DNA of 27,654 nt from the IMG/VR virus record IMGVR_UViG_3300037071_004025, positions 1-27,654 of that record; one strand, given 5' to 3'. This DNA is from a virus. Below the pieces are notes generated by a model that saw only the letters and a program-made list of their open reading frames with translations, searched no databases and was not told where the DNA came from. This document shows, piece by piece, positions 1,563 to 27,654 of this stretch; position 1 is the stretch's first letter, and every line of letters begins with the position of its first letter. The position numbers and the translations under genes are program-made.

Positions 1563-1579
1563 ATAATAGACACACCTAA
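1563..1579 (-). promoter_or_regulatory. Promoter with shared 17-bp element, early operon 2
   Basis: On the minus strand this reads TTAGGTGTGTCTATTAT. TATTAT is a good -10 hexamer. The preceding GTGTGTC block is shared with the promoters at 4433, 20420, 21023 and 21814. No -35 consensus is apparent at the usual distance. Confidence 0.7.
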
Positions 1580-4432: not shown

Positions 4433-4449
4433 ATAATAGACGCACGGAA
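4433..4449 (-). promoter_or_regulatory. Promoter with shared 17-bp element, recombination operon
   Basis: Minus strand TTCCGTGCGTCTATTAT, identical over 17 bases to the copy at 21023-21039. Predicted start of transcription is near 4426, giving a leader of about 47 bases with GAAGGAGCCG before ATG 4379. It lies back to back with the HNH gene promoter. Confidence 0.75.
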
Positions 4450-8037: not shown

Positions 8038-8228
8038 TTCTCGGGTCCCCGTTCGGCGGCTTTCTCGGCGCGCAGGTCCTGCACGTCATCGAACAGGCCG
8101 GTGACCTGCCGGCCCTCGGCGTCGTACACGGGCGGCATGGTTTCGAGGGCGGTGAAGTAGTCGTCGTCGGTGAGTTCGTGGAGCCCACCCTCGCCGGTGC
8201 GCCTGTGCTTCTCCTCGGGTTCGGTCAC
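8034..8228 (-). CDS. Small charged protein before the endolysin
   Basis: A 64-residue, strongly charged protein, start GTG 8228 with AAAGGAT upstream. It has no cysteines or membrane segment. Its middle (DDDYFTALETMPPVYDAEGRQVTG) is acidic and its end (DVQDLRAEKAAERGPEK) helical. It overlaps the endolysin start by GTGA. Small charged proteins in this slot of actinophage genomes are of unknown function; a tail-tip or lysis accessory role is possible. Confidence 0.65.
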   Translation of the reverse strand: MTEPEEKHRRTGEGGLHELTDDDYFTALETMPPVYDAEGRQVTGLFDDVQDLRAEKAAERGPEK

Positions 8229-8262
8229 GAACCGATCCTTTCACGGGGGAACGAACGCAACG

Positions 8263-10357: not shown

Positions 10358-13203
10358 GGGAGGGCTCCTGCCGGCGCGGGGCGGGTGATGCCCGAGTTGA
10401 GGTTCCACACGACGGACTGCGTGACCCGGGCGGCGACCCCCGCGATCGGCTCGCCCGGTGCCTGATGGATGTGTTCCTCGATCGTGACGGGGCCGGCCTG
10501 CGTCGGTGCTGCCAGTGCGGTGCCTCCTCCGAGGCGACCGCCGGCCGCTGCCACGAGGAGCGCCGCGGCCCGGTCCCGGTCCTCGGGGGTGACCACGGTC
10601 TCGTCGTTGCGGAGGAGTGCGAGCCCCTGTCCCACGTTCCCGAAATCGACCACACCGCCGACGTGGAATGTGGGAATCTTCGGAACGTGCGGAATGTCGT
10701 CAAAGGGATTGACTAGGTTTACACCGTCGATGACAACATTGATGCCACCGATTACGGTGTTATTGATTCCGCGGATGACGGCATTGATCGCGCCCTTGAT
10801 TGCGCCACCGATGCCCTCGAACATTCCGCCGACGAAATCTGCGATGCCGGAGAAGATCCGGCCGATCCCGTCCTTGAGTCCCTGGAACCCGCCGGTGACC
10901 CCGCCGACGATGCGGGTGACGATCCCCGAGATCCCGGTCCACAGGGACGTCCAGATCCCGATAACGGTGGACACGAACCCGATGACGACGGACGCGACGG
11001 TCGAGGCGAACCCGATGAACGCCCCGATGATGGAGATGAGGACCCCGACGATGGGCATGATCGCGCCGATGAGGGTGGTGAACAGGCCGATCACGATGGG
11101 CAGGAACGGGAGGAGCGGGACGATCGCGGCCACCACCAATTGGATGATGACCATGACCAGTTGCAGGAGTGGGGGGATGAGGGGTGCGACCGCCTGCAGG
11201 ATCATGGCGATGAGGTTCGCGAGCATCGGCAGCAGCGGGAGGAGGGGGATGACCGCGGCCATGATGAGCTCGAGGAACACGTTGATGAGCGTGGGCAGGA
11301 TGGGGAGGATCGCCTGCAACGCGCCCATGAGCGCCCCGATGAGGACCTGCGCGATGGTCGAGAGCGCCTCCACCAGCGGGGGCAGGATCGGGAGGAGCGC
11401 CTGCAACGCGGTCGCCAGTGCCCCCGCGAACATGACGGCCACCTGACCGAGGACGTCCGCGATGACGGGCAGCACCGGGAGGACGGCCTGCAACGCCCCG
11501 GCGAAAGCCCCCGCGAGGGCGGTCGCCACCTGACCGATGACGGTGGCGATGACGGGGAGGACGGGTGCGATAGCGGCGAGTGCCTCCGCGAACGCCCCGG
11601 CGAGGACGGTGGCGATCTGCCCGATCGCGTCCACCAGGACGGGCAGGACGGGGGCGAGGGTGGTGAGGACGGACAGGAACGCCCCGGCGAGGACCGACGC
11701 CACCTGACCGATCGCCGCGACCAGTGGGGGGATGACGGGGGCCAACGCCTGGATGACGGTCACCAGGGTCGTCGCGAATAGGCCGGCGACCTGCCCGATG
11801 ATCGGCGCGAGCTGCGCGAGGACCGGCCCGATCTGCGCGAAAATGTCCGAGATCGCCGGCACCAGGGTTTGCAGGACGGTGACGATGACGGGGATGACGG
11901 CGGCCACCACATCGGCCCACCGGGTGAAATAGTCGATGATGAGGGGCAGGGCACCTTGCGCGAGTGAGGCGAGGAGATCCGAGAAGGACTGCAACCCTCC
12001 CCCACCACCGCCCCCACCGAACGCGACCTTGACGATCGCCCCGATGGTGGTGAACGCCCCGGACACCTGCTCGAGGATGGGACCGATGACCGGGGCGAGA
12101 CCCTCCCGGAGCCCGTCCCACATCGAGAACAGGGTCCCTTGCGTCTGGAACACGAACTCCCCCGCGCGGGTCGCGAGCCCCTGCAGGGAGTCCTCCGCGA
12201 GGAGCGCCGAGTTGCCGGCCCCGTCCACCAGCGACTCGCGGAAGATCGCCCCGAGGTCCCCGGCGGCCCCGGCGATCTGCCCGATCTGGAACGGGAGACC
12301 CGTGAGCCCCTGCGTGGCCTCGTTGACGGCGGCGTTCCCGTCAGAGAAGCCGAGCCGGAACATGTCCCCCACGGTGCCGAGGGCGTCCCCCACCCCGCCG
12401 AGTCCATCGGTGAGGTTGAGGAGGCGGGGCATGACGGAGCCGGTGATGATCCCGGCCGCGTTCGCCAGGGCGGGGACGAACAGTCCGCCGACGTTCGTGG
12501 ACAGGTCGGTCCACTGCGCGCCCATGATCCGCTGCTGATTCGCGAGCCCCTCGGACGTCCGCCCGAAGTCGCCCTGCTGTAGGGCGGTCTGCGCCATGAT
12601 GAGCGAGTAGGTCGCCTGCGCCTTCGCTGCCCCGGACAGCTCCTCGCCGGTCTTCGCGAGACCGAGCCGAACCGCCTCCTCCTCGATCGCCGCGGCGGAC
12701 AGCATGACCCCGAACCGGCGCAGCGGCTCGGTCTCCCCGATGAGCCCCGACCGGAGGGCGTCGAGCGCCTCCTGCGGGGTGGCGTTCCCAAACGATGCCA
12801 TGTCGGAGGCGGTGGTCACCAGCGACGTCGAGAGGTTCGCGGCCTCGGCGGAGCCGATGCCCATGCCACGGAACAGGGTGCCGAAAGAGCCCGCGGCCTC
12901 GAGTGCCTGATTGCGGGACTGTCCGAGGGCGGTCGAGGCGGTCGAGGCGAACTCCTCGATGAGCCCGGCGGAGTCCTCGAACACCACGCCGACCTTCGAC
13001 ACGTTCTCGCCGAGGTCTACGGCATCGGATACCGCGCCCTTGAGGAACGTCCCGATCGACACCGCGGCGAACGCGGCGGCGAAGAATCCCGCGGCCTTCT
13101 TCGCGACCCCGGGCATCCCCCGCGAGATCTCGTCGTCCGCCTCGCTGACGAACTTGTCCGCGACGGGGCGGAGCCGGACACCTGCGTCCCCGACCAGGAG
13201 CAC
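10354..13203 (-). CDS. Tape measure protein
   Basis: A 949-residue tail tape measure. The N-terminal third has the typical tape-measure core, with AFAAVSIGTFLKGAVSDAVD and the segments ENVSKVGVVFEDSAG and MASFGNATPQEALDALRSGL. The centre is very hydrophobic. Residues 487-631 are five tandem copies of a 29-residue unit (form LAPVLPVLVDAIGQIATVLAG plus eight), with further diverged copies after them. A Gly/Ile-rich amphipathic domain (GGMFEGIGGAIKGAINAVI) follows near residue 800. The protein sets tail length and is ejected with the DNA. GTG 13203 starts directly after the chaperone stop, with GGAGGAGG upstream. Confidence 0.96.
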   Translation of the reverse strand: MLLVGDAGVRLRPVADKFVSEADDEISRGMPGVAKKAAGFFAAAFAAVSIGTFLKGAVSDAVDLGENVSKVGVVFEDSAGLIEEFASTASTALGQSRNQALEAAGSFGTLFRGMGIGSAEAANLSTSLVTTASDMASFGNATPQEALDALRSGLIGETEPLRRFGVMLSAAAIEEEAVRLGLAKTGEELSGAAKAQATYSLIMAQTALQQGDFGRTSEGLANQQRIMGAQWTDLSTNVGGLFVPALANAAGIITGSVMPRLLNLTDGLGGVGDALGTVGDMFRLGFSDGNAAVNEATQGLTGLPFQIGQIAGAAGDLGAIFRESLVDGAGNSALLAEDSLQGLATRAGEFVFQTQGTLFSMWDGLREGLAPVIGPILEQVSGAFTTIGAIVKVAFGGGGGGGGLQSFSDLLASLAQGALPLIIDYFTRWADVVAAVIPVIVTVLQTLVPAISDIFAQIGPVLAQLAPIIGQVAGLFATTLVTVIQALAPVIPPLVAAIGQVASVLAGAFLSVLTTLAPVLPVLVDAIGQIATVLAGAFAEALAAIAPVLPVIATVIGQVATALAGAFAGALQAVLPVLPVIADVLGQVAVMFAGALATALQALLPILPPLVEALSTIAQVLIGALMGALQAILPILPTLINVFLELIMAAVIPLLPLLPMLANLIAMILQAVAPLIPPLLQLVMVIIQLVVAAIVPLLPFLPIVIGLFTTLIGAIMPIVGVLISIIGAFIGFASTVASVVIGFVSTVIGIWTSLWTGISGIVTRIVGGVTGGFQGLKDGIGRIFSGIADFVGGMFEGIGGAIKGAINAVIRGINNTVIGGINVVIDGVNLVNPFDDIPHVPKIPTFHVGGVVDFGNVGQGLALLRNDETVVTPEDRDRAAALLVAAAGGRLGGGTALAAPTQAGPVTIEEHIHQAPGEPIAGVAARVTQSVVWNLNSGITRPAPAGALP
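11311..11745 (-). repeat. Five 87-bp tandem repeats in the tape measure gene
   Basis: Units start at 11745, 11658, 11571, 11484 and 11397 (minus direction). The gly-gln-val/ile motif recurs at exactly 87-base steps (for example + strand ACCTGACCGA at 11441, 11528 and 11702, and ATCTGCCCGA at 11615). The repeat keeps the reading frame, so unit number could change tail length. Confidence 0.85.
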
Positions 13204-14054
13204 CTATCTACCTCCTCCGCCGGCGAGATCCGCTGCCCGCTGCATGCCGCGCTGATGCGAGGGGAGGAGCCCCCACGTCTCGCGGGCGGGTGCGTTGAGG
13301 CTGGCGAGGTGCTCGTCCAACCTGCCCACCGCCTCGAGGCGCTCCTTCGACATGTCCAGCGCGTAGGAGTAGATCACCGCGAGCCACTGAGTCGCGGGGA
13401 GCGCCTCGAGGTCGGTCAGCCCCTCGCGGGCCGCTTTGCCCGTGAGGTACGTCCGGCAGCTCGCCCAGAAGTCGTAGAGGGCTGCTGCCTCCTCGTAGGG
13501 CGGGAGGACGCACGACCCACCACGAACTGCGCGACCCCGGTGAGCGCCGAGAGGGGCACCCGCTTCGTCGGGTCGTCCATGAGGTAGGCGAACCTGCGCC
13601 GGCTCGAGCCGGCTTCGTGCTCGGGGTTGAGGAGGGTGAGGTCGGCCACCAGGTCGCCGTGCGGGTCCTCGTAGAGGGGCTGCCCGGTGGTCTCGTCCTT
13701 GACGATGTACCCGTCCTCGTCCATGGCGGGGAGGATCTCCCCCGTCTCGGGGTTCCGCTTCGGCTCCCACTCGGCGGAGATCCCGTCATCGTTGCGGAGG
13801 AGGGTGCCGAGGAGGTTCGCGATCGCGACCCCCTGCCGTAGCTGGTCGCGGGCGGACAGGACGGCCATGATCGCCCCGGCGTCCGCCTCGGTATGGATCT
13901 GGAACGCCTCCCGGTAGGACGGTTTCCCGTCCGGGTGCACCTCGAGCTTGACGGTCTCGTAGGACAGCGACGTCTCGACGCCGAACACGGGCACCCCGTC
14001 CTCATCGAGGACGGTGCCCGGGGGCAGGGCGGGGGAGGTGGCGGGTTGCGTCAC
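13204..14054 (-). CDS. Tail assembly chaperone fusion made by -1 frameshift
   Basis: The second chaperone product. After about residue 180 of the first chaperone, reading moves back one base into a frame that continues for 103 codons with well-formed protein: SCVLPPYEEAAALYDFWAS, TDLEALPATQWLAVIYSYAL and MSKERLEAVGRLDEHLASL. Upstream of that point this frame is Arg-rich noise, and downstream of it the original frame becomes noise. The change point is therefore near 13515-13523 (GTGGTGGGT in the mRNA). Slipping of a Gly tRNA from GGT to GGG would fit, giving a 283-residue product. Such paired chaperones guide tail tube assembly round the tape measure, which follows immediately. The exact slip codon is inferred. 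Confidence 0.8.
13416..14054 (-). CDS. Tail assembly chaperone, unshifted product
   Basis: The 212-residue first chaperone. It starts at GTG 14054 with GAGGAG eight bases upstream and begins MTQPATSPALPPGTVLDEDG. It contains VETSLSYETVKLEVHPDG, HTEADAGAIMAVLSARDQLR and RRFAYLMDDPTKRVPLSALTG, in keeping with helical tail chaperones located before the tape measure. The last 32 residues after AQFVVG are Arg/Ser-rich and probably carry no function of their own, since the frameshift product leaves this frame there. Its first codons (ATG/GTG ACG CAG/CAA) recall the MTQT starts of the cassette genes. Confidence 0.85.
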   Translation of the reverse strand: MTQPATSPALPPGTVLDEDGVPVFGVETSLSYETVKLEVHPDGKPSYREAFQIHTEADAGAIMAVLSARDQLRQGVAIANLLGTLLRNDDGISAEWEPKRNPETGEILPAMDEDGYIVKDETTGQPLYEDPHGDLVADLTLLNPEHEAGSSRRRFAYLMDDPTKRVPLSALTGVAQFVVGRASSRPTRRQQPSTTSGRAAGRTSRAKRPARG

Positions 14055-14129: not shown

Positions 14130-14200
14130 GGGTGGGGCGGGAGTCGAACCCGCCGGCCGGCTCGCGAGCCCAGGGCCACCGACCCCCACCGGGCCACCCC
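14130..14200 (-). tRNA. tRNA-like element, degraded or atypical
   Basis: Between the gp10-like gene and the chaperones, the minus strand holds a clear T-arm, GCGGG-TTCGACT-CCCGC, followed directly by CCCACCC. The last six of these pair with GGGTGG at the 5' end as an acceptor stem. A possible anticodon loop CTCGCGA (anticodon CGC, alanine) is flanked by stem halves with four of five pairs. The D-arm does not fold well, position 8 is C instead of U, one acceptor pair is a mismatch and no CCA is encoded. A worn tRNA relic or a fortuitous structure are the alternatives. Confidence 0.33.
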
Positions 14201-18081: not shown

Positions 18082-19872
18082 TCAGTCCGCGAGAGCGGGG
18101 GCGACGGTCCCGACCACCGCGCCGGTCGGCTGCGCGCCGGCCACCACGCGCAGCGGCTCGACACCCCGGGAGGCGAGTCCCTCGAACTGCTCCGCGAAGG
18201 TCTTGTATTGATTCTGCGCGTTGAGGGTGGAGTCCCGGACCACGCCGAGGTCCAGGTTCCCGCCGTTGAGGTAGGTCCAGTCACCCTCAGACCAGATGAG
18301 CGACTCCACGGCGTCGGGGAAGCCGGGGAGGACACCGTTGTCCGGGGCGTCCGCGTAGAACTGTGCCGGCATGGCGACCTCGCCGGCCCCGGCGGTGGTG
18401 GCACCGCGGCCGTCGAGGTGCCAGGTGATGTTCACGTTCCGGCGGGCGAACCAGGCGTTGATCTCGGCGTCCGCGACGGCCAGGGCCTCGAGGTCGCCGG
18501 CCATGCCTCGGGTGAGGTCGGCGCGGATCATGTCCCGAGCCCACCGGGGGAGGACGTGCCGGAGGGGCACGGCGTCCTCGAGGCGGTGACGGTTCCGGAA
18601 GTAGGCGATCGTCTTATCCGCCATGACCAGGAGATCCCGGGCGGCGGACACGACTGCCGGGGAGGTGAGGGTCTTCGACCCGTTCGCGATCTTCGTCATC
18701 AGCCGGTTCTCGAGGAACCGGGCGTGCGCGATCTGCGTCGCCCGGATGTTCGCCGCGGTGCTCTCCGGGTCGAACCGGGCGGTGATGTTGGAGAACGTGA
18801 GGCAGAGGGGGATGCCCTCGATGTAGGCGGTGTCCATGTCGGGGCACCACACGGGGAGGCAGGGCTTCGGGTCCGGGTCGGCCACGGTGTCGTCGTTCTG
18901 CGCCTCGTCGTCCGCGAGGGTCCAGACGCGGAACCCGCCCTCGGGCTCGGAGTCCTGAAAGACGGGCGGGCGGCGGAACTGGATGCCGCCGCGGCTGGTC
19001 TGGAAGCCGAGCAGGGCGTCGCGGACGGGGCGGGCGGTCGAGCCGAGGACCTCGATGTCGTAGACGGTCTCGACGGGGGCGCAGAGACCGCCAGCGGCGA
19101 CGACGGCACCGCGGGCGCGCTGCACGTCGCCGGCCGCGACGATCGCCCGGGTGCTCGAGGCGGCGCGGATGCGCTGCCGGTTGAGGGCGGCGTCGTCGGT
19201 GAGGATCCGCTCGTCCGGATAGGTGGTCTGGATCGAGAGCACGGCGATCTTCTCGCCGTTCCCACCCTTGACCCCGGCGATCGACTGGCGGCGGCGGTCG
19301 AACGCCTCGACCAGGGGGTCCACGGAGTCGAACTGCTGCCCGGAGGAGATCCCGGACCCGAGGTCGGCCGCGGCCACGACCACCTGCCGGGCGCGGAGCG
19401 GCTCGGGCTGCCGGTCGCGGGAGCGGGCGGACTGGCGTCCGGTGCGGCGGGTCATCTCGCCCGGGCGGGGGAGGGGGGTGCCGGTGCCGCCGGCTCCTCG
19501 GCCGGAGGCGGTGACGGGCTCCCGGGTCTCGCCGGCCGGCTGCCCCTCGGCGTCGGCGTCCTCGCCGTCCCCGGAGTCGTCCCCGTCCTCGCCGTCCTCG
19601 TCGTTCTCGTCCTCCGGTCCCTCCCCGTTGATGCGGGCGAGGGCGGCGGCGGCGCGCTCCGCCTGCTGCGCGGCCTGCTCCTCGAGTTCGGTCTGCCGGC
19701 CGGTGAACTGGTCGAGCGCGTCCGCGAGGGAGGTGAGCTCATCGGCCACCTCCGGGGTGATCTCGACGTCCGCCAGCTCGCCGGCCCGCTCCCGGACCAG
19801 GGTGATCCCCTGCTCGAGCTCGGCGGCGGTCAGGTCGGCCAGGCGGGCCAGGAGTTCGGCGATCTCGTTCAC
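18082..19872 (-). CDS. Major capsid protein with fused N-terminal scaffold-like region
   Basis: A 596-residue protein. Residues 1-80 are helical and Glu/Ala-rich, followed by an acidic low-complexity stretch (about 83-112, mainly D and E), then a basic linker and the capsid core from about 145. Core landmarks are AGGLCAPVETVYDIEVLGS, RPVRDALLGFQTSRGGIQF, FRVWTLADDEAQND, PLCLTFSNITARFDPES, RLMTKIANGSKTLTS, KTIAYFRNRHRLEDAVPLRH and NLDLGVVRDSTLN. These match the HK97-fold major capsid proteins of Streptomyces-type siphoviruses. The N-terminal part probably acts as a fused scaffold removed by the protease. GTG 19872 has AGGGG upstream. It lies between two hairpins, so it could be its own transcription unit. 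Confidence 0.93.
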   Translation of the reverse strand: MNEIAELLARLADLTAAELEQGITLVRERAGELADVEITPEVADELTSLADALDQFTGRQTELEEQAAQQAERAAAALARINGEGPEDENDEDGEDGDDSGDGEDADAEGQPAGETREPVTASGRGAGGTGTPLPRPGEMTRRTGRQSARSRDRQPEPLRARQVVVAAADLGSGISSGQQFDSVDPLVEAFDRRRQSIAGVKGGNGEKIAVLSIQTTYPDERILTDDAALNRQRIRAASSTRAIVAAGDVQRARGAVVAAGGLCAPVETVYDIEVLGSTARPVRDALLGFQTSRGGIQFRRPPVFQDSEPEGGFRVWTLADDEAQNDDTVADPDPKPCLPVWCPDMDTAYIEGIPLCLTFSNITARFDPESTAANIRATQIAHARFLENRLMTKIANGSKTLTSPAVVSAARDLLVMADKTIAYFRNRHRLEDAVPLRHVLPRWARDMIRADLTRGMAGDLEALAVADAEINAWFARRNVNITWHLDGRGATTAGAGEVAMPAQFYADAPDNGVLPGFPDAVESLIWSEGDWTYLNGGNLDLGVVRDSTLNAQNQYKTFAEQFEGLASRGVEPLRVVAGAQPTGAVVGTVAPALAD

Positions 19873-20068
19873 GGGGGGTCCCCTCGGTTCGGTGGTCTGC
19901 TGCGGGTGCGACAGGGCGCGAGCCGTAGGACCGGGGCCTAGGGCCTCGCCGTGTCCCGTTCCGCCGGCCGCGCTAGGCGCTGCGCCGTGGTGCTCGAACA
20001 GGGGGGACGCTAACCCGCGGCGTCGTGGGGCGGGTGAGAGTCCCGGGGCAGGAGGGGCCAGGACATGC
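19873..20068 (-). other. Gene-free leader upstream of the major capsid gene
   Basis: 196 bases with no ORF of credible quality. It lies between the terminator at 20069-20105 and the capsid start, so a promoter is expected here. I see only weak -10-like words (TTAGCG near 20011, CCTAGC near 19973, CCTAGG near 19940) and no -35 match. The 17-bp element is absent. Confidence 0.4.
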
Positions 20069-20105
20069 CGCAGCCCCTGTCCCGGGGAAGGAGACAGGGG
20101 CTGCG
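20069..20105 (-). terminator. Terminator of cassette unit 4
   Basis: Perfect 13-bp stem CGCAGCCCCTGTC (20069-20081) and GACAGGGGCTGCG (20093-20105), 11-base loop, 20 bases past the stop of the 95-residue cassette gene. Confidence 0.75.
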
Positions 20106-20125
20106 AGATCGGGCGGGAGGAGCCG

Positions 20126-20413
20126 CTACGGGCGGACGACGGGCCGGTTCCACACCTGCGGGGTCCACCCGAGGATGACCCGCTCGGTGTCCGCGTGGTC
20201 GCATCCCTGGCAGTTGTCCCCGTTGAGGGGGTGGTCGCCGTCGAAGTAGTCCGCCTCGCGGATCTCCTCGCAGGAGTAGCAGCGGAGCCCGATGGTCTCG
20301 TCTTCCTCGGACCACGCCCAGGTGAGGGGGTCCGCGAACCGGCGGAACTCGACGGGGAGGACAGCGACGTCCTCGAGGGCGGTCAGGGTGGCGGGGTAGG
20401 TGGTCTGCGTCAT
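20126..20413 (-). CDS. Cassette gene 6, zinc-binding type, leaderless
   Basis: A 95-residue protein starting at ATG 20413, six bases after a TATTAT hexamer and with no Shine-Dalgarno, so its mRNA should be leaderless. It begins MTQTTYPATL. Cysteine pairs CYSC (45-48) and CQGC (68-71) bracket an acidic segment with DYFDGDHPLNG, a treble-clef or zinc-ribbon-like arrangement. Trp/Pro-rich ends follow (GWTPQVWNRPVV). It is alone in its unit, with a promoter at 20420 and a terminator at 20069-20105. I do not recognise the family; protein or nucleic-acid binding is inferred from the zinc pattern. Confidence 0.72.
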   Translation of the reverse strand: MTQTTYPATLTALEDVAVLPVEFRRFADPLTWAWSEEDETIGLRCYSCEEIREADYFDGDHPLNGDNCQGCDHADTERVILGWTPQVWNRPVVRP

Positions 20414-20419
20414 GCTCCC

Positions 20420-20436
20420 ATAATAGACACACGAAA
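20420..20436 (-). promoter_or_regulatory. Leaderless promoter of cassette unit 4
   Basis: Minus strand TTTCGTGTGTCTATTAT, then six bases, then ATG 20413. The predicted start of transcription is the A of the start codon. Its upstream end abuts the terminator of unit 3. Confidence 0.8.
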
Positions 20437-20462
20437 CCCCCCGGGTCCAGGTCCCGGGGGGT
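20436..20462 (-). terminator. Terminator of cassette unit 3
   Basis: Perfect 10-bp stem ACCCCCCGGG (20436-20445) and CCCGGGGGGT (20453-20462), seven-base loop, 15 bases past the stop of the 73-residue gene. On the minus strand it is followed by TTT and runs straight into the next promoter. Confidence 0.78.
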
Positions 20463-20477
20463 CGTGTCCGATCCGTT

Positions 20478-20699
20478 CTAGTAGCTCCGGTGCTCCGGGT
20501 GCTCCGCGTCCATGTGCTCATCGAGGAGTGCCTGCACCACCTGGCGGGCGGACGTCTCCGGGTCGTCGGCGTAGTCCGCGTCGGCCCGCACCTCGAACCA
20601 GGTGCACCCCACGGCGGGGCAGGTGCCCATGTGCCCGTAGCGGATTCCGTCCCGGTCGCGGGCGGGGCTCGGCTGCGCCCACCTCGAGGCGCTGCTCAC
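20478..20699 (-). CDS. Cassette gene 5, Cys2-His2-like small protein
   Basis: A 73-residue protein from GTG 20699, which overlaps the stop of the upstream gene (GTGA). The second half holds CPAVGC (27-32) and two or three histidines in ALLDEHMDAEHPEH (58-71), a long-loop Cys2/His2-like metal site. It pairs with the 106-residue gene in a two-gene unit. I do not recognise it; such small finger proteins are common accessory genes in actinophages. Confidence 0.7.
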   Translation of the reverse strand: MSSASRWAQPSPARDRDGIRYGHMGTCPAVGCTWFEVRADADYADDPETSARQVVQALLDEHMDAEHPEHRSY

Positions 20700-21016
20700 G
20701 GGAGGTCCACCGCGGACTCGCGGAGGTGCGCCTCGATGCCCCACCCGGTCGCGACGTCGAGGACGGTGCGGACGGTCGGGGACCCCTGCAGGGGGACCGG
20801 GACGTAGCCGGCCAGGTCCTCGACGGCGAGGCGGACGACGGTCGCGAGGTGCTCGGCGGCGCGGTCGTGACGGGTGAACAGGCGGAGGTGCGTGGAGGGG
20901 ATGCCGCGGCCGGAGACCAGGACAGCGAACACGGTCGGGGCCATGGTGAGCCCGGGGGCGTGCTCCTCGAGGACCTCGGCCAGGGTGGTCGGGATGAGGG
21001 GGGGGGTCTGCGTCAT
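20696..21016 (-). CDS. Cassette gene 4, leaderless, unknown
   Basis: A 106-residue protein from ATG 21016, exactly six bases after TATTAT, no Shine-Dalgarno. It begins MTQTPPLIPTTLAEVLEEHA. The body alternates strands and helices (VFAVLVSGRGIPSTHLRLFT, AAEHLATVVRLAVEDLAGYV, TVRTVLDVATGWGIEAHLR), a compact alpha/beta domain. There are no cysteines. It overlaps the zinc-finger gene and shares its promoter. I do not recognise the family. Its expression is probably early because its promoter is identical over 17 bases to that of the recombination operon. Confidence 0.72.
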   Translation of the reverse strand: MTQTPPLIPTTLAEVLEEHAPGLTMAPTVFAVLVSGRGIPSTHLRLFTRHDRAAEHLATVVRLAVEDLAGYVPVPLQGSPTVRTVLDVATGWGIEAHLRESAVDLP

Positions 21017-21022
21017 GCCCCG

Positions 21023-21039
21023 ATAATAGACGCACGGAA
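21023..21039 (-). promoter_or_regulatory. Leaderless promoter of cassette unit 3
   Basis: Minus strand TTCCGTGCGTCTATTAT, identical to the element at 4433-4449, then six bases and ATG 21016. No -35 consensus. Confidence 0.82.
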
Positions 21040-21062
21040 TGACAGAACGGCAGGGCGAAACG

Positions 21063-21108
21063 CGGAAGGGCTCGGACACCCACGGGGGGAGGTGTCCGAG
21101 CCCTTCCG
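21063..21108 (-). terminator. Terminator of cassette unit 2
   Basis: Longest hairpin of the window: GGAAGGGCTCGGACACC (21064-21080) and its exact complement (21091-21107) plus one flanking C-G pair, 10-base loop. It begins 19 bases past the HTH gene stop. Confidence 0.85.
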
Positions 21109-21126
21109 ACGCTACGCGCCCCGGGA

Positions 21127-21807
21127 TCACGCGGGGAGGGTGTAGGTGCCCATCTGCCCGCGCTTCGCCCCGGCGGTGTACGTGAGCCGGCTCGAGGCGG
21201 CGAGGCGCGACAGGGCCGGGGAGGCGACCTCGTGACCCCACCCGGTCGCGGCCTTGAGGCTCGCGATCGTGAGGGGACCCTCGCCGGCCATGCGGAGGAT
21301 GACGGCGATGCGCTGCTCCGCCGGCCCCTGCACGACCACGGGGGCGGGGGTGCGCTTCGCCTTCGCCCGGACCACCCCGTCCCGGCCGAGGGACGTCGTG
21401 ACGTCCTCGCACCCGGCCTCGGGGGTGCGGAGATCCGCGGCCACGGTCGACTTGTTGTAGCCCGACGCGGCCTCGATCGCCCGGGCGCTCATCTGGAACT
21501 CGCGGTGCAGCTTCCCGAACACCTCGCGGCGGGTCGCGGGGGCGAGGCGGAGCCGCTCGGCCCCGGCGAACTCGGTGCGGCAGTAGTCCTCCCACGTCGG
21601 GTAGCCGAGAGCCCGCCACGCCTGCCCGGCGTAGGCGCGGCCGAGACCGTCCCACGCGACGGACAGGGCGAGGCGGATCGTGTCGGTGAGGACGCGGGCG
21701 TCCTCACCGGACAGGAGCGCGCCGGGCTGCTCGGCCTCGAGGATCTCCCCCTCGAGGACCTCGGCGGTCGCGGGGACCAGGGACAGGTGGGTAGCGGTCT
21801 GCGTCAT
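21127..21807 (-). CDS. Helix-turn-helix DNA-binding protein, leaderless
   Basis: A 226-residue protein from ATG 21807. After an acidic N-terminus (MTQTATHLSL onward) comes AWRALGYPTWEDYCRTEFAG, the typical opening of actinophage HTH proteins. Then LRLAPATRREVFGKLH and a helix-turn-helix at about 105-127 (SARAIEAASGYNKSTVAADL) follow, then a basic linker and a C-terminal winged helix (about 164-224, TIASLKAATGWGHEVASPAL, RGQMGTYTLPA). ParB-like or transcription regulator functions fit; no partner is visible. Start was chosen because the -10 lies six bases upstream and the ATGACGCAGACC start matches the other cassette genes; a much longer in-frame reading upstream is rejected. Confidence 0.8.
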   Translation of the reverse strand: MTQTATHLSLVPATAEVLEGEILEAEQPGALLSGEDARVLTDTIRLALSVAWDGLGRAYAGQAWRALGYPTWEDYCRTEFAGAERLRLAPATRREVFGKLHREFQMSARAIEAASGYNKSTVAADLRTPEAGCEDVTTSLGRDGVVRAKAKRTPAPVVVQGPAEQRIAVILRMAGEGPLTIASLKAATGWGHEVASPALSRLAASSRLTYTAGAKRGQMGTYTLPA

Positions 21808-21813
21808 GGGGAG

Positions 21814-21830
21814 AATACTGACACACGAAA
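21814..21830 (-). promoter_or_regulatory. Variant leaderless promoter of the HTH gene
   Basis: Minus strand TTTCGTGTGTCAGTATT, then six bases and ATG 21807. The upstream 11 bases match the shared element but the -10 is AGTATT instead of TATTAT, or TATTCT if shifted by two bases. It may be a weaker version. Confidence 0.6.
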
Positions 21831-21860
21831 CCCTGTCCGGGCAGTGTCCGATCGGCGTGG

Positions 21861-22070
21861 TCACGACGGGATCTCGAGACCGGGGCAGCAGTTGCGGACG
21901 GCGTAGCGGGCGAACCTGCCGTGCGGGCAGCGGAGCGCCGGCCCGAGGGACACGTAGGAGGACCCCTCCGCCCGGGCGGGCGGAGGGGTGAGGGTGTCGA
22001 GGAGGGCGTAGACCCGGGGGCACTCGGCGGTGGCGAACCGGCCGTGCGGGTCGCGGGGCTGCTCGCTCAC
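21861..22070 (-). CDS. Cassette gene 2, duplicated HGRFA motif
   Basis: A 69-residue protein from GTG 22070, overlapping the previous stop (GTGA). It holds two copies of a PHGRFA motif, at DPHGRFATAECPRV (about 7-20) and CPHGRFARYAVRNC (about 48-61), each with nearby cysteines (C17, C48, C61, C62), perhaps two halves of one metal site. Between them lies a Pro/Ala linker. The family is not recognised. It shares a unit with the 97-residue gene. Confidence 0.65.
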   Translation of the reverse strand: MSEQPRDPHGRFATAECPRVYALLDTLTPPPARAEGSSYVSLGPALRCPHGRFARYAVRNCCPGLEIPS

Positions 22071-22360
22071 GCGGTCCACTCCGCCCGGAGGGTGCGGTTG
22101 AGGGCGGCGGCGGCGCGGCCCGGGGTGCCGTGCTCCTCGATGAGGTCGCGGGCCGTCCCGGGGAGGATGAGGGGGATGAGGGTGCCGTCGTCCTCCCCGA
22201 GGTCCTCCCCCTCGATGGTCTGGAACACCTCGAGGCGGGCGAGGTACAGCGCCGGCCCGGTGGAGTAGTCCGCGAGGTCGAGGACGACGGTGCCGAGGAG
22301 GCGGGTCGCCGCGGCCGCGAGGGTAGCGGCGGTGACACGGGGGGTGCTGGTCTGCGTCAT
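22067..22360 (-). CDS. Cassette gene 1, unknown
   Basis: A 97-residue protein from ATG 22360 that begins MTQTSTPRVT. It is Ala/Leu-rich: helix AATLAAAATRLLGTVVLDLA, strand ALYLARLEVFQTIEGED, acidic turn, LIPLILPGTARDLIEEHG and helix AAAALNRTLRAEW. There is no signal peptide or membrane span. CGTTAT lies six bases before the ATG, a weak -10 without the upstream half of the shared element. The product is not recognised. Confidence 0.7.
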   Translation of the reverse strand: MTQTSTPRVTAATLAAAATRLLGTVVLDLADYSTGPALYLARLEVFQTIEGEDLGEDDGTLIPLILPGTARDLIEEHGTPGRAAAALNRTLRAEWTA

Positions 22361-22366
22361 ACCCCC

Positions 22367-22372
22367 ATAACG
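22367..22372 (-). promoter_or_regulatory. Weak -10 of cassette unit 1
   Basis: Minus strand CGTTAT, six bases before ATG 22360. The spacing matches the other leaderless starts but the upstream GTGYGTC block is missing, so this is the least certain of the set. Confidence 0.4.
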
Positions 22373-22520
22373 GCCGATTCGGGCCGGAGCTTTAGCGGGG
22401 GGAGCGGATCTCCCCCATCCGGGGGGTGTCCGGCTCTGGACAGTCCGGCGGGCGCTTGAGTCCCCCGTAGGGGAGGGCTACCGCGCCGGCTGCCGGCCAC
22501 ACCGTACCGCGGACATGGAG

Positions 22521-22564
22521 CGGCCCCCGCCCGGCTGTTATGACGCAGACCGGGGCGGGGGCCG
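22521..22564 (-). terminator. Terminator after the capsid protease gene
   Basis: Perfect 12-bp stem CGGCCCCCGCCC (22521-22532) and GGGCGGGGGCCG (22553-22564), loop 20 bases, about 74 bases past the protease stop. It isolates the cassette from the head genes. Confidence 0.7.
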
Positions 22565-22637
22565 CCGTGAGGTGCCAGACCCCGGCGGGCGTGTCCCGGG
22601 TGACCCGGGCCGCGGGGGAGGCAACCTGCCGTCGAGT

Positions 22638-24377
22638 CTAGCCGGCTCGCCGGCCGATGCCGATGCGCTCGAGGGCGAGTCGCGCCCGCAGCTTGTCCAC
22701 GGGGGCCATGCGCTTCGCGACCTCGCGGGCGATGATCTCCTCCACCCGGTCAGACTGGCGGACAGGAGCCGAGGCGACCCCGGCGGCGACGACGGCGCGG
22801 AGCCGGCCCGACGCGGCGACAGCGTGCGGGCGCTCGACGGGGAACCCGGGGACGTTGCAGGCGAGGAGCCCGACCAGGCGCATCCCCCCATCCCAGATCG
22901 GCTCGCGCCAGTCGCCGGAGAGCTTCGCGGCCTGCAACTCGCGGACGGTCTCGGGGGACACCCCGGGCCGCACTGCTCCGTTGAGCCAGAATCCGAACTC
23001 GTCCTCGCCTACCCGGACGTCCGCTGCCGCGGTGCCCGTGTTGTCGTAGTGCTCCTTCGCGGCCCACGCCGAGACCCGGGGGTCGGTGGAGGCGTGCCCG
23101 GTCCCGAGGGTGATCTGCCCGACCGAGACCAGGGACCCCTCCGCGGTGCGGACCGCTCCGAGGTGGAACATCGGGTATTCGCCGTCCGGGGATGCCAACT
23201 CCTCCGGGGTCAGGCAAATCCCCTGCATGCCGGTGTGGCAGGTGCCGCGGAGGGCGTAGTGCCCGAAGATCCGCCCCTCCTCGGTGAGGGTGAGGGGGGT
23301 CGGGCCGTCGAAGTTCGGCGGGTCGAACCAGGCGGCGGGCGGGGCCAGGGGGCCCCCGCCGGAGGCGACGACGGCGCGGCCGGCCTGCTCGTCGTCGCAG
23401 GAGGTGCACCCGGTCCCCTCCACGATCCGGACGGGGCGCATCCCGACCTCGGCGAACCGTGCTCGAGCTGCCGCGCCGGAGGCGACGACGGCGAGGGACG
23501 CGGCCTCCGCCGGCTCCGGGACGGCCGGCGTTCCGTCCGTGACGTTTCCCTCGGCATCGGTGACCCGGCCGGTCATCTCGATGTAGGCACCGGGGAAGGC
23601 GGGGAACGGGCAGATGGTCGCACCCATGAGGGCACCCTGCGTGACGCGCTCCCGGCCGTCGAGGGGCCACCCGTCCTCATCGACCTCGGTTATCTCGATC
23701 TCCGAGCGTGCCTCGGACATGTCCACCGAGAGCCCGCGGAGGACCCCGGTCTCGACGTAGGTGCGGGTGCTCGCTGCCTCCTCGGTGTCGGAGACCACCC
23801 ACCCGCCGAGCCGCCACGCGAACACCCCGGCCCCGTAGGGCTGCCCGGTCTCGGGGTTCGTGGTGCTGCTCGCGTCGAACCGTTCGGCGGTGTCGATCCG
23901 GCCGGCGGTGACGGCGGCGTCGTGCCCACCCCACCCGCCGTCGGGGTTGCGGCGCATCGCCATGAGGGTCCAGGGGAGGGCGCGCCGGCCGATCCCGCCG
24001 GGCTCGAAGTAGCGGTTATCGGCGGTGAGCCACCCCTCGAGGAAGGACACGGGCATCGTGAACTCGGCCGCGTTCGGGGGCGGGGGTAGCTCGGTGTCCA
24101 CGGGGGTCCGCTCCGCTGGCGGGGGGTTGCCGGGGAGCACCTCGTCGGACACGACGATCCCGAGGTCGTTCGGCTCCACCTCGTCGTCGTCCTCATCGTC
24201 CTCCGCGAGGGCGACCCGGAGCCGCTCCACGTCCTCCTCGGACAGTTCGACGGTGCCGGCTGCGAGGCGCTCGAGGAGGGTCGGGCCGTCCGCGACGACG
24301 GCGCGCCACCTGCCGGCCTCGAACCGTCCGAACCGGGACAGCGTGTCCCCAGGGTTGTCCACGGGCTGTGCATCCAT
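22638..24377 (-). CDS. Capsid maturation protease
   Basis: A 579-residue protein from ATG 24377 behind GAGGA. The protease part lies at about 105-230: GHDAAVTAGRID (H152) and LRGLSVDMSE (S217) are the likely catalytic residues of the actinophage head protease family. The second half is a conserved partner domain: IFGHYALRGTCHTGMQGICL, SVGQITLGTGHAST, HYDNTGTAAADVRVGED, SGDWREPIW and LACNVPGFPVERP. This half-pattern is characteristic of Streptomyces-type phage protease genes and may be a structural or scaffold part. The protein cleaves the capsid protein's N-terminal region during head maturation. It lies between portal and capsid, as expected. Confidence 0.9.
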   Translation of the reverse strand: MDAQPVDNPGDTLSRFGRFEAGRWRAVVADGPTLLERLAAGTVELSEEDVERLRVALAEDDEDDDEVEPNDLGIVVSDEVLPGNPPPAERTPVDTELPPPPNAAEFTMPVSFLEGWLTADNRYFEPGGIGRRALPWTLMAMRRNPDGGWGGHDAAVTAGRIDTAERFDASSTTNPETGQPYGAGVFAWRLGGWVVSDTEEAASTRTYVETGVLRGLSVDMSEARSEIEITEVDEDGWPLDGRERVTQGALMGATICPFPAFPGAYIEMTGRVTDAEGNVTDGTPAVPEPAEAASLAVVASGAAARARFAEVGMRPVRIVEGTGCTSCDDEQAGRAVVASGGGPLAPPAAWFDPPNFDGPTPLTLTEEGRIFGHYALRGTCHTGMQGICLTPEELASPDGEYPMFHLGAVRTAEGSLVSVGQITLGTGHASTDPRVSAWAAKEHYDNTGTAAADVRVGEDEFGFWLNGAVRPGVSPETVRELQAAKLSGDWREPIWDGGMRLVGLLACNVPGFPVERPHAVAASGRLRAVVAAGVASAPVRQSDRVEEIIAREVAKRMAPVDKLRARLALERIGIGRRAG

Positions 24378-24382
24378 CGGGG

Positions 24383-24586
24383 TCAGTCCTCCTCGGGCGG
24401 GCCGTACAGGTCGTTTCGGCGGGTGAGCACATAGCCGCGCACCCATAGGAGCCGGTTCTCGGATCCGGACGGGTAGACGTCGAGGACAGCGCGAGAGTCG
24501 AGCCCCGCCTGATAGGCGGCGACCCCGGCGTCGAACGCCTCGATCTGCGCCGGGGACGGCTGCGGGACCGGTCCTGCGCTGGTCAT
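24383..24586 (-). CDS. Small Rmf/CrpP-like protein
   Basis: A 67-residue protein whose ATG 24586 overlaps the portal stop (ATGA). The pattern AFDAGVAAYQAGLDSRAV, then YPSGSENRLLWVRGYVL with RR, recalls the ribosome modulation factor/CrpP family (A..G..A...G.......NPY......W..G+). Ribosome or enzyme binding would be expected from that family, but this short match is not proof. Its place between portal and protease is translationally coupled to head genes. The N-terminal 12 residues are Pro-rich. Confidence 0.6.
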   Translation of the reverse strand: MTSAGPVPQPSPAQIEAFDAGVAAYQAGLDSRAVLDVYPSGSENRLLWVRGYVLTRRNDLYGPPEED

Positions 24587-27500
24587 CGCCGGCCTCCTCG
24601 GTGCTCGGTGCGGTCCCGGTTGATCCTGCCGTTCTCGGCGGCGTGCTTCGCTGCCCGCTCCGCGAACGCGGGGGACCCGGTGCGGGCGTAGTAGAACTCG
24701 GTCCAGGTCATGCGCCGGTTCGTCTCGAGGTAGCCGAGCAACTCCTCCGACCCGTAGCGGTAAAGCTGATCGACGGGGCCGGTGAGGAGCGCCCGGGTGG
24801 AGACACCGCGGGACCTGCCGCGGTCGTTCGTGAGGTTGCCGCGGGTAGCCTCCTCCGCCTCGAGCATGAATGTCTCGTACCAGAGGGCGTACTCCTCCTG
24901 TACCTGCGCCCGGGACGGCCCGCTCTCGTCGGTGAGCCCGATCACGGAGTGCGTGTGCGGCCGGCCCCCGACCCGGTTGTGCGTGAGCCCGGGGACACCG
25001 TTGCGGGCGGCGAAGTCGTCCACGGCCCGGCGGACCTCGTTGAGGTCGGGGTCCTCCTCGAGGAGTCCGCGCTCCTCGAGGTGCTGCAGTTCGCCGGCCT
25101 CGTACTCCTCCCACTGCTCGTACTGCTCGAAGCGGCGCAGCTCCCGGGGGTCGCCGTCCGAGATCCGCAGGGACATGTGCTCGACCAGGTTGTCGTGCTG
25201 CTCCGGTGTGAGCTTCGAGAGGTAGGAGTAGGTGAGCCGGTAGGGCACCCCGGCCTCGTCCTTCGCCGGCCGGCGGGCGGCGGTGCGCTTCGTTGCGGCC
25301 TTCTCGACGGGCCGCGCCGGGGGGGCGTCGTCTCCCCGGTAGGGGACGGTCGGGGCGACAGTGCGGCGGCGGGGCCCCTGCTGCGCTGCCACCTCGCGGG
25401 CGGCGTCGGTGGCCCGACCGCCGGCCAGGTCCCCGATCTCGTCGGCCACGTCGCGCTGCCGGATGCCGTCCGACCAGACGGGCATGTAGTCGCAGTGGCA
25501 TCCCTTGTGGTCCCCGGGGGCCATGCTGCCCCCGATCCACTCGGCCCCGGTGCCGGTGGTGTCGAGCTCCGGTGCCCCCCACGTCGGGAACCGCACCCCG
25601 TCGAGGCGCTGATGCGGGAGGAACGGGCGGGTCGAGATCCCGTAGGCCCACTCGTAGTGGTCGATCTCCGATCCCTGGCCGCGCATGAAGTCGGACAGCA
25701 GCTCCCCGGTTCCGAGCCCCCCGACGCCGCGGTTCCGCGCCCCGGGGAGACCGTCGCGGGTGAGCCCGCCGATCGCGGTGTGCAAGCCTCCGGCGGTGGC
25801 GAGCGCGCCCCGGACCAGGGACGGGTTCACGAGGGAGTTCGGGATCTCCCCCCGGTCGGGGATGTCGGGGTCGCCGTCGTAGAGGTGCTGCTCCGCGACG
25901 TCCCCGAGCCCGGTCTGCAGGAACTCCCACCCGGCCTCGATGCCGTCCCGGAAGGCGAGGTTCAGTTCACCGACCAGGCGGCGGATCTCCTCGGTGTTGG
26001 AGTCCGCGCCGAGGAGGCGGACGCAGGTGGCGATCGCGTCCTCGCTGGCGGCGGTCGTCCACTCGACGTACTGCGTGCGGAGGCGGGCGTACTCGTCCGC
26101 GAGGAGTTCGGCCTCGTCCAGACCGAGGGCGGCGACGACGGCCGGTCCGAGGGTGCCGGCGACCTGCTGCCCGGGGATGCCGGCGATGCGCTCCCGGTAG
26201 ACCGATGCGGTGGCGGAGCGGGTGGCGGCGGAGCGGACACGGTTGCCGGCCCGCTCGAGGACCCGGGCGAGGGCGGCGTCGCATGCCCCGACCAGGCGCT
26301 CCCGGAGTGCTCGGTCGATCTCCATGAGCCGGCGGGATAGGCGGATCTGCTCCTCGGTCGGTTCGGTGGTGGCCGCGGAGGTGACAGCGCGGGGGGAGAT
26401 CCCGAGCCGGGCGAGGGCGGAGGCGGCGCGGGTCGCTGCCGGCTGCTCGATCGCGGGCGGGCCGTCCTCGTCCGGTTCGGTCTCGGGGACGCGCTCCGAG
26501 TCCACGCGGGTCGGCTGCCCGAACGCGCCCCCGGACGTCTCGGGGGGGCCGATGAACGGAAGCTCGGGGAGGTCGAGCGCGGCCATGACTGCGGTCGGGT
26601 CGAACCCGGTGAGTATGAGGGTCTGCGCGGTGGTCGAGAGGGTGGACAGTTCGGCGGGGGTGCGGCCGGTCTCGCCCACCTCCTCGTCGGCGCGGGGGTC
26701 CTGCACCAGGTTCGACGGGTCGTACCAGATGACGACGCGGGAGACGATCGGCCAGGGGAACCCCATCGTGAGGAGGGTCGCCCGCAGATAGCCCACGGTG
26801 AGGGCGGCGCAGGAGGCGGCGACGATCGGCTCGACGTGGTGTGTCCAGGTGGCGAGGTCGATCTGCCAGGCGGTCCAGTGGTTGACGTCCGCGAGCCCGG
26901 TGATGATCTCCGGGGGGACGTCGAGTCCGGTCGCGAGGCGGCGCAGTGCCTTCTCCTCGGTGATCTCGGCGTCCTTCGTCATCGGACGGTCGAGGGTGAC
27001 GTGCCGGATCTCTTTCAGGTCCTCGCGGTCGCCACGGAGCATGAGGGGGACGACAGCGGAGGGGGCGGACTCGTCCCCGATCGGGGTGACCATGGCGAGG
27101 GTGAGGTCAGCCATGACCTTCGACGCTTTCGAGTCGGACTCGTCGCCCATCCCATCGCCGGCCGCGTAGGAGTCGGCGGTCTGCCCGGTGCCGGGCTGCG
27201 GGGAGGCGCTGCCGGTGATGATCCCGTTCGGCATGAGGAGGACACCGTTGCCGGCGATCCGGTTTCGGAGGGCGGCGCGCCTGCTCCGGCCGGCGAGGAG
27301 GATCTCCTCGCAGGTGTCCAGGAGCGCCCGCATCGGGGAGTCGGGCCACTCGGAGAACTGCGGGTGCGGGCACCACAGGCGGGCGACGTAGGCGTCGTCG
27401 GGGAGTCGCCGGCCTGTCTCGAGGGACGTCGTGGCGACGGTGCTCGAGACCAGGAAATACCCCTCGTCGGTGATCCGCAGCTCGTCCATGCTGCGGATCG

Positions 27501-27654
27501 ACCACTCCTCGCGGCCGGTCTCCGGGTCGGTGAACCCGAGGAGGTAGCACTCGCCCACGGTCTCGAAGTTCTGCACGACGGGGGACAGGATGACCCCGTG
27601 CCCGGCAGCGTCCCCGGTGAGCCGGTCGAGCGCGGCCTGCGCTGCCTCCCGGAT
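24583..27654 (-). CDS. Portal protein fused to MuF-like domain, 5' end outside window
   Basis: The frame is open to the right edge, so the start lies beyond it; about 1,023 residues are visible. The portal core includes GVLLMPNGIITGS and LDVPPEIITGLADVNHWTAW with HHVEP, a typical actinophage portal segment for the ring that DNA is packaged through. Near residue 385 (numbered from the in-frame GTG at 27576) a second part starts: a long helical region, then STRPFLPHQRL and HKGCHCDYMPVW, the Cys/His end of MuF-like minor head proteins. The final 290 residues are charged, helical and unrecognised. One ORF carries both portal and MuF parts, in contrast to the usual two genes. Terminase is presumably upstream. 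Confidence 0.88.
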   Translation of the reverse strand: MREAAQAALDRLTGDAAGHGVILSPVVQNFETVGECYLLGFTDPETGREEWSIRSMDELRITDEGYFLVSSTVATTSLETGRRLPDDAYVARLWCPHPQFSEWPDSPMRALLDTCEEILLAGRSRRAALRNRIAGNGVLLMPNGIITGSASPQPGTGQTADSYAAGDGMGDESDSKASKVMADLTLAMVTPIGDESAPSAVVPLMLRGDREDLKEIRHVTLDRPMTKDAEITEEKALRRLATGLDVPPEIITGLADVNHWTAWQIDLATWTHHVEPIVAASCAALTVGYLRATLLTMGFPWPIVSRVVIWYDPSNLVQDPRADEEVGETGRTPAELSTLSTTAQTLILTGFDPTAVMAALDLPELPFIGPPETSGGAFGQPTRVDSERVPETEPDEDGPPAIEQPAATRAASALARLGISPRAVTSAATTEPTEEQIRLSRRLMEIDRALRERLVGACDAALARVLERAGNRVRSAATRSATASVYRERIAGIPGQQVAGTLGPAVVAALGLDEAELLADEYARLRTQYVEWTTAASEDAIATCVRLLGADSNTEEIRRLVGELNLAFRDGIEAGWEFLQTGLGDVAEQHLYDGDPDIPDRGEIPNSLVNPSLVRGALATAGGLHTAIGGLTRDGLPGARNRGVGGLGTGELLSDFMRGQGSEIDHYEWAYGISTRPFLPHQRLDGVRFPTWGAPELDTTGTGAEWIGGSMAPGDHKGCHCDYMPVWSDGIRQRDVADEIGDLAGGRATDAAREVAAQQGPRRRTVAPTVPYRGDDAPPARPVEKAATKRTAARRPAKDEAGVPYRLTYSYLSKLTPEQHDNLVEHMSLRISDGDPRELRRFEQYEQWEEYEAGELQHLEERGLLEEDPDLNEVRRAVDDFAARNGVPGLTHNRVGGRPHTHSVIGLTDESGPSRAQVQEEYALWYETFMLEAEEATRGNLTNDRGRSRGVSTRALLTGPVDQLYRYGSEELLGYLETNRRMTWTEFYYARTGSPAFAERAAKHAAENGRINRDRTEHRGGRR

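Follow-up and report, generated by a model that had tools for sequence, protein, structure and literature searches.

The capsid maturation protease and major capsid genes of an uncultivated phage with a high guanine and cytosine (GC) content are separated by six small genes, which we interpret, with a probability of about 0.72, as a moron-like island of exchangeable early-class genes within the late operon. Phage morons are accessory genes that are inserted between genes adjacent in relatives, carry their own promoter and terminator, and are lineage-specific. The phage is represented by the IMG/VR virus record IMGVR_UViG_3300037071_004025, which was analyzed in its entirety (27,654 bp; hereafter the window). 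Its protease-capsid gap measures 2,765 bp and is filled by six minus-strand genes, p1 to p6 (Table 1).

Four Units with a Common Start Module

The six genes form four units (p1-p2, p3, p4-p5 and p6), in which GTGA overlaps join p2 to p1 and p5 to p4. This arrangement had been outlined in a preliminary description of the same DNA and is confirmed here at the level of open reading frames (ORFs). All six are also predicted by a gene caller based on codon usage and trained on the structural genes, with p2 and p5 given a different start. The first 12 bases of the lead gene are identical in every unit (ATGACGCAGACC) and encode MTQT. Exact copies of ATGACGCAGAC stand at the four unit starts, and with one mismatch allowed there are 7 copies in the window, where about 1 is expected. 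Among 2000 runs on simulated sequence, 2 produced any 12-mer with four copies. The module as a whole forms one 38-nucleotide (nt) repeat family with four copies (100, 87, 71 and 63% identical). An exact plus-strand copy of ATGACGCAGAC also lies inside the hairpin that follows the protease gene (22540–22550), and may be fortuitous, the remnant of an inverted unit, or a site for protein binding.

By sequence, each of the four units has a promoter of its own, one of them weak, much as the preliminary description had claimed. The −10 element is TATTAT, 6 nt before p4 and p6, or TATTCT, 4 nt before p3; it is degenerate before p1. The upstream element reads GTGYGTCTATTAT at p4 and p6 and GTGTGTCAGTATTCT at p3, with a degenerate copy at p1. 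A TANNNT hexamer about 10–12 bp upstream of the start is a known mark of leaderless genes, which are common in Actinobacteria (PMC3160421). Such a hexamer, with no Shine-Dalgarno (SD) sequence, is found at p3, p4 and p6 and at four further units on two contigs introduced below. Since the −10 elements lie only 4–6 nt upstream of the ATG, the island mRNAs are probably leaderless. CA repeats immediately downstream of the start boost leaderless translation (PMC9031893), and ACGCAGACC would be compatible with an enhancement of this type. RNA folding also bears out the hairpins described earlier: one precedes p1, and others follow p3, p5 and p6 (z −2.8 to −6.4). The 3′ side of p2 showed no hairpin (z +0.5).

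The promoter core GTGYGTCTANNAT has four sites in the window (1563, 4433, 20420 and 21023) and none in the reversed control. These sites belong to p4, p6 and two early operons only, and p3 has a variant. The module marks early-region genes and an island within the late operon, and within the window it is found at none of the genes for head or tail. The earlier claim that the unit starts and promoters match each other and those of the early genes thus stands with one restriction, namely that the early genes of the window itself begin without MTQT. This start does occur in early genes on two contigs of near-identical phages that extend the genome beyond the window, L040 (14,153 bp) and L048 (14,785 bp), neither of which covers the island. 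Identity to the window is 100% along 12,495 bp of L048 and 99.7% along 5,318 bp of L040, whose observed mismatches fall in a contig end that bears adapter sequence. Together they add four ATGACGCAGACC units near the genes for a DnaC-like loader (replication) and DNA methyltransferases. Among 57 called genes, eight begin with ATGACGCAGACC; all eight have the promoter within 30 nt, and none has an SD match. The promoter is found without this start at one of the 49 remaining genes (Fisher P 5e-9).

Three side observations concern these contigs and the start sequence. The early region of L040 contains two DNA methyltransferase genes (7853–8686 and 12788–13522), the second of which directly follows an MTQT unit. 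An alternative p1 allele on L040 was rejected as an assembly artefact, with the mismatches concentrated in the last ~80 bp of the contig; this end (1–120) holds Illumina-adapter sequence (TCCGATCT ... AGATCGGAAGAG), and alleles there are unreliable. Finally, a phage contig with a GC content of 0.73 and no protein match to the window (L014) has five called genes that begin with ATGACGCAGAC and are preceded by another repeated promoter (TTGACACTGTTGACA...CATACT). The leaderless start of L014 may have arisen or spread independently.

A Reused Insertion Site

We measured the gap in 53 relatives in which both protease and capsid genes were found. It spans 83–256 bp in 34 of them, 460 and 677 bp in two, and 1.8 and 2.1 kb in another two. 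The remaining 15, with gaps of 2.6–6.7 kb, are those in the window's own clade and the closest ones measured; the 34 relatives with small gaps are nearly all more distant. On the capsid tree the window falls within a clade of 41 rows (support 100/99). Of the 17 clade members that could be measured, window counted, 16 carry an island, the exception being L129 with a gap of 130 bp. The distribution of islands on this tree requires at least three changes, so the island may have been gained or lost more than once. The six genes are accordingly found between genes that adjoin each other in relatives, with the empty state mostly in the more distant ones. The preliminary description had proposed a repeatedly loaded docking site, and the comparison does show that the gap is a reused insertion site in this clade. 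One distant relative, L127, has a 1.8-kb protease-capsid insertion (402–2189) with collagen-like and membrane-protein-like ORFs, which is absent from its sister L126 (gap 124 bp).

Exchange of Island Genes

Gene content differs among the islands while the head genes are kept. Clustering of 158 proteins from the islands of the window and 15 relatives gave 97 clusters, of which 70 contain a single protein, and p1–p6 match nothing in the islands of these 15 relatives. Many island genes of the relatives have promoters of their own and run on the opposite strand. Few have a recognizable function (collagen-like tail, tail, GDSL lipase, decoration-like and HNH genes, and one weak PADLOC match). Only one island gene is nearly universal, a small CxxC zinc-ribbon-like gene that occurs in 13 of the 15 relatives (L062–L079, L109, L128 and others); the window has no recognizable copy.

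The preliminary description had proposed comparing the interval among related phages, and this comparison reveals genes that swap as units between conserved start modules. L076 and L079 are 94% and 97.7% identical on the two sides of an exchanged segment. In L076 this segment comprises 687 bp and two units, and in L079 it comprises 518 bp and a single, unrelated unit. Identity falls from ~1.0 to ~0.25 at the start codon, right after the common promoter and leader, and returns at the TTGACA promoter of the following unit. A third relative, L109, has both kinds of unit in tandem, one of each.

The start modules of these relatives differ in sequence from those of the window. In L064, L076, L079, L109, L067 and L074 they read GGAACNACC..GGAAGGACC, with 2–3 per island, most others in distant genome clusters, and none in the reversed control. 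In L064, L076, L079 and L109 many modules are preceded by TTGACACCCAC promoters, both outside the late region and in the island (control 0). L078 uses another leaderless promoter, with two copies in the island and a third elsewhere. The sharing of a promoter class between island and early genes is thus seen in the relatives as well as in the window. Between the −35 and −10 elements, the promoters of L064, L076, L079 and L109 contain CCCAC...GTGGG or CCCAC...GGGG inverted repeats reminiscent of operators for a single regulator.

These details invite the question of whether the 36–38 bp modules are primarily operators or recombination sites of a dedicated system, with their promoter likeness secondary. 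Such a role would account for a nucleotide-level repeat that reaches into coding sequence, for the exact inverse copy of ATGACGCAGAC in the hairpin, for operator-like spacer repeats in relatives (CCCAC...GTGGG or CCCC...GGGG), and for swap breakpoints at module edges. However, the modules sit directly at start codons with a −10 element, as in leaderless genes (PMC3160421), and the reuse of the 12-base start behind a different promoter in the apparently unrelated L014 fits a role in translation. No recombinase gene was seen linked to the modules. We consider this explanation very unlikely.

Relocation in the Closest Relative

With p1 as query, one gene was matched (69% amino acid (aa) identity), and it lies in a different gap (L191 entry) of the closest relative, G025. 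This genome of 53,502 bp encodes a capsid 48% identical to that of the window and has a protease-capsid gap of 6.6 kb. Homologues of p1 (69%), p2 (52%) and p3 (29%; hhalign probability 97.6 against the p3 family) stand side by side between two connector genes, in another gap of the late operon and on the strand opposite to the late genes. In the window, the same connector genes are 148 bp apart. DNA similarity between the two p1 genes begins ~17 nt into the gene, past ATGACGCAGACC, which suggests that gene body and start module have separate histories. G025 has a leaderless module of its own (GTACTTCCCCC...CCGTGYATATAAT, then ATG) in the protease-capsid island, in the connector gap and in the 40–46 kb region.

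The connector gap of the window includes, on the minus strand at 14131–14190, a sequence that resembles the acceptor and T-arm of a tRNA (GGCGGGTTCGACTCCCGCC) and may be what remains of a tRNA or of an attachment site. A tRNA as the insertion site in this gap was considered and rejected, with no tRNA found by ARAGORN and only a sub-threshold tRNA-like hit in Rfam.

The relocated block also bears on an alternative explanation, in which the six genes belong to the ordinary late set (as scaffold helpers, decoration or minor head proteins) and are expressed by read-through from the protease gene, with incidental promoters and hairpins. The island genes do share the strand of the late genes, their hairpins are without clear T-runs, and decoration-like and tail-like genes occur in the islands of some relatives. 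But the promoter class is otherwise limited to early regions, island content is variable where the head genes are conserved, and the relatives' island genes are often on the opposite strand with promoters of their own. Together with the inverted p1-p2-p3 block in another gap of the closest relative, these facts make a set of ordinary late genes quite unlikely.

Predicted Products

The only product with a functional lead is p3. Its AlphaFold2 model (predicted local distance difference test, pLDDT, 75) contains a confident helix-turn-helix (HTH) and winged helix, and p3 is predicted to be a DNA-binding protein with two domains. The winged helix resembles Zalpha, ArsR and MarR domains (target-normalised TM up to 0.89, no E below 0.001). 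The profile search suggested in the preliminary description assigned p3 to phrog_29861 (E 1e-9) and placed none of the other five proteins in a family above cut-off. In temperate actinophages, members of the p3 family are the leading genes of early lytic operons and have excise, repressor or ParB-like genes as neighbours. The earlier suggestion that the HTH gene could be the regulator is compatible with its predicted DNA binding and family context, although p3 belongs to no known repressor family. In bacterial genomes, p3 gave pattern matches and no confirmed relative.

Searches of the six proteins against Pfam, NCBIfam and PADLOC gave nothing above the cut-offs. For p1, p2, p4, p5 and p6, all hits stayed below every family cut-off and no annotated phage was matched; a search for relatives of p6 found none. 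Two candidate results were discarded: homology between p3 and p4, hinted at by a DNA repeat (BLASTP E 0.013 for one pair), and a fold for p4 (pLDDT 50).

Given the family context of p3, the island could alternatively serve lysogeny or immunity, its genes being expressed from a prophage and p3 acting as the repressor, similar to the morons of lambdoid phages (PMC7067206 for the term). That p3 relatives adjoin repressor, excise or integrase genes in temperate phages is consistent with this idea, and so are units with their own promoters, which match classic morons. Yet these relatives belong to an early lytic operon beside the repressor gene, and so are not themselves the repressor. Furthermore, no integrase is named among the families found (recombination, replication, methyltransferase, structural), in a search of part of the genes of an incomplete genome that took in the window and portions of L040 and L048. 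We regard a lysogeny module as unlikely.

Proposed Mechanism

We favor a model in which four self-contained units, each with a promoter, a leaderless start module, one or two small genes and usually a hairpin, were inserted into the late capsid operon. Since the promoter is of the phage's own early class, the island genes should be transcribed together with the early operons, ahead of the late mRNA and not dependent on it. Transcripts would begin at or beside the ATG, and the fixed AC/CA-rich first 12 bases would serve as a start signal for leaderless translation. Recombination at unit ends and at or close to the conserved start modules may add, remove and exchange units, such that gene bodies turn over while position and regulatory module persist. 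The products would most likely be small early proteins for host takeover or counter-defence, with p3 as a DNA-binding regulator.

Several observations weigh against this model. The promoter of p1 is weak and has no good TANNNT. A terminator scan of the window returned 0 hits, and the hairpins after three of the four units have no clear T-runs, making them candidate terminators only for any insulation from late transcription. The island has a GC content of 0.737 compared to 0.716–0.727 in its surroundings, and hence no compositional trace of recent import; a deviant composition is common in morons though not obligatory. The precise swap is seen in relatives with another module, not in the strain of the window. 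Collagen-like tail, tail, GDSL-lipase and decoration-like genes occur in the larger islands of relatives, so the site is open to more than early genes and may also take late ones. Five of the six products, all but p3, are without a functional lead, and p1–p6 matched no known defence or anti-defence family.

A bolder version of the model would treat the module as a plug that supplies transcription, leaderless translation and homology for exchange at once, and the gap as a clade-wide loading dock for counter-defence genes with lineage-specific plugs. If so, any small ORF recombined behind ATGACGCAGACC would immediately become an early gene. We offer this version as a tentative and rather doubtful one.

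Relation to Known Systems

Like morons, the island is inserted between neighbouring genes of relatives, has predicted promoters of its own and candidate terminators, and is lineage-specific. Unlike typical morons, it consists of four tandem units with a common early promoter and a fixed leaderless start, its site is reused across a whole clade, and its composition matches that of the phage.

Start-associated sequences have been described in cluster K mycobacteriophages and cluster EF Microbacterium phages (PMC3203893, PMC7302621). As in these phages, a short repeat marks the starts of many small genes from different families. The cluster K sites occupy the ribosome-binding position and are limited to the non-structural half of the genome, in contrast to the −10 element, start codon and three further codons found here, with no SD sequence and inside the late operon. 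A sequence of ~13 bp at 3–7 bp before the start is absent from the window and present in L064, L076, L079 and L109. The modules of the relatives (GGGAAGGACC before ATG) resemble the EF motif GGGAAAGGACCCC. An 18-bp motif of cluster EC Microbacterium phages (PMC7302621) likewise marks non-structural and inserted small genes, one of them between MuF and protease genes. It differs in sequence and spacing (21–30 bp upstream of the start, before the ribosome-binding site), and the available part of that report describes neither a leaderless start nor evidence of a swap. Arthrobacter cluster AL phages such as Laroye have eight genes between protease and major capsid (PMC5513430); the corresponding part of this source describes no shared promoter module.

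The closest functional parallel comes from archaeal viruses, in which anti-defence genes were found through a shared early regulatory sequence (PMC11065993). In both cases many small orphan genes stand behind one conserved early regulatory sequence, with the difference that function was tested for some of the archaeal virus genes and the island is known from its sequence. Because a shared early regulatory sequence can flag such genes, counter-defence is a reasonable guess for the island products. New with respect to the sources cited here are a leaderless promoter-plus-start module common to several units, swap breakpoints at this module, the reuse of one late-operon site throughout a clade whose lineages have their own modules, and the displacement of a block of three genes.

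Genome Context

Nearly every gene of the window is encoded on the minus strand. The rightmost gene is a single ORF of 997 aa in which portal and MuF-like head morphogenesis domains appear to be fused. The protease region shares 34–36% identity with annotated capsid maturation proteases, and relatives of the scaffold-capsid fusion gene are annotated as major capsid. Leftward of the latter follow connector and tail genes, an endolysin gene, and then genes for an Erf-like annealing protein and a single-stranded-DNA-binding protein (SSB). An HNH-endonuclease-like ORF (4471–4818, plus strand) lies amid the lysis and early genes and adjoins the early promoter at 4433–4445. The best matches of the capsid are ~40% identical and come from Arthrobacter, Microbacterium and Gordonia phages. 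A megablast search of the window against known phages gave no match, and the capsid 5′ end as a direct query for further strains found nothing.

Table 1. Location of the island, its regulatory elements and neighbouring genes in the window
Feature	Position	Strand	Description
Early-operon promoter core	1563..1575	−	GTGTGTCTATTAT; upstream of early operon
Early-operon promoter core	4433..4445	−	GTGCGTCTATTAT; upstream of Erf-like annealing protein, SSB
Scaffold-capsid fusion gene	18082..19872	−	left island border; phrog_777 major head protein, E 4e-82
Hairpin after p6	20068..20106	−	candidate terminator; z −4.2
p6	20126..20413	−	95 aa; CxxC...CxxC, possible zinc site; ORF and codon model
Unit 4 start module	20402..20437	−	GTTTCGTGTGTCTATTATGGGAGC + ATGACGCAGACC
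Hairpin after p5	20437..20461	−	3′ side enters p6 promoter (GGGGGGTTTCGTGTGTCTATTAT); z −2.8
p5	20478..20699	−	73 aa; ORF
p4	20696..21016	−	106 aa; predicted helical, low confidence; ORF and codon model
Unit 3 start module	21005..21040	−	ATTCCGTGCGTCTATTATCGGGGC + ATGACGCAGACC
Hairpin after p3	21063..21108	−	perfect 18-bp hairpin, candidate terminator; inverted repeat I6, z −6.0
p3	21127..21807	−	226 aa; predicted DNA-binding, helix-turn-helix and C-terminal winged helix
Unit 2 start module	21796..21831	−	GTTTCGTGTGTCAGTATTCTCCCC + ATGACGCAGACC
p2	21861..22070	−	69 aa; CPHGRFARYAVRNCC motif; ORF
p1	22067..22360	−	97 aa; ORF and codon model
Unit 1 start module	22349..22376	−	degenerate −10 (GTTATG) + ATGACGCAGACC; repeat family D1
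Hairpin after protease	22519..22566	−	candidate terminator; −41.6 kcal/mol, z −6.4; no T-run
Capsid maturation protease region	22638..24446	−	right island border; phrog_859 / phrog_18402, PHROG match E 3e-70
Portal-MuF fusion	24583–27576		first in right-to-left gene order

Implications

Small phage genes of unknown function are located mostly in early regions, where accessory and essential genes are hard to tell apart. Here, a fixed position in an otherwise conserved late operon collects such genes. The promoter and the 12-base start tag constitute a genome-wide sequence signature of one regulon, and a signature of this kind may provide a way to choose candidate host-takeover or counter-defence genes in actinophages, as it did in archaeal viruses. 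The island also represents a natural case for studying how single genes are exchanged without disturbing virion assembly.

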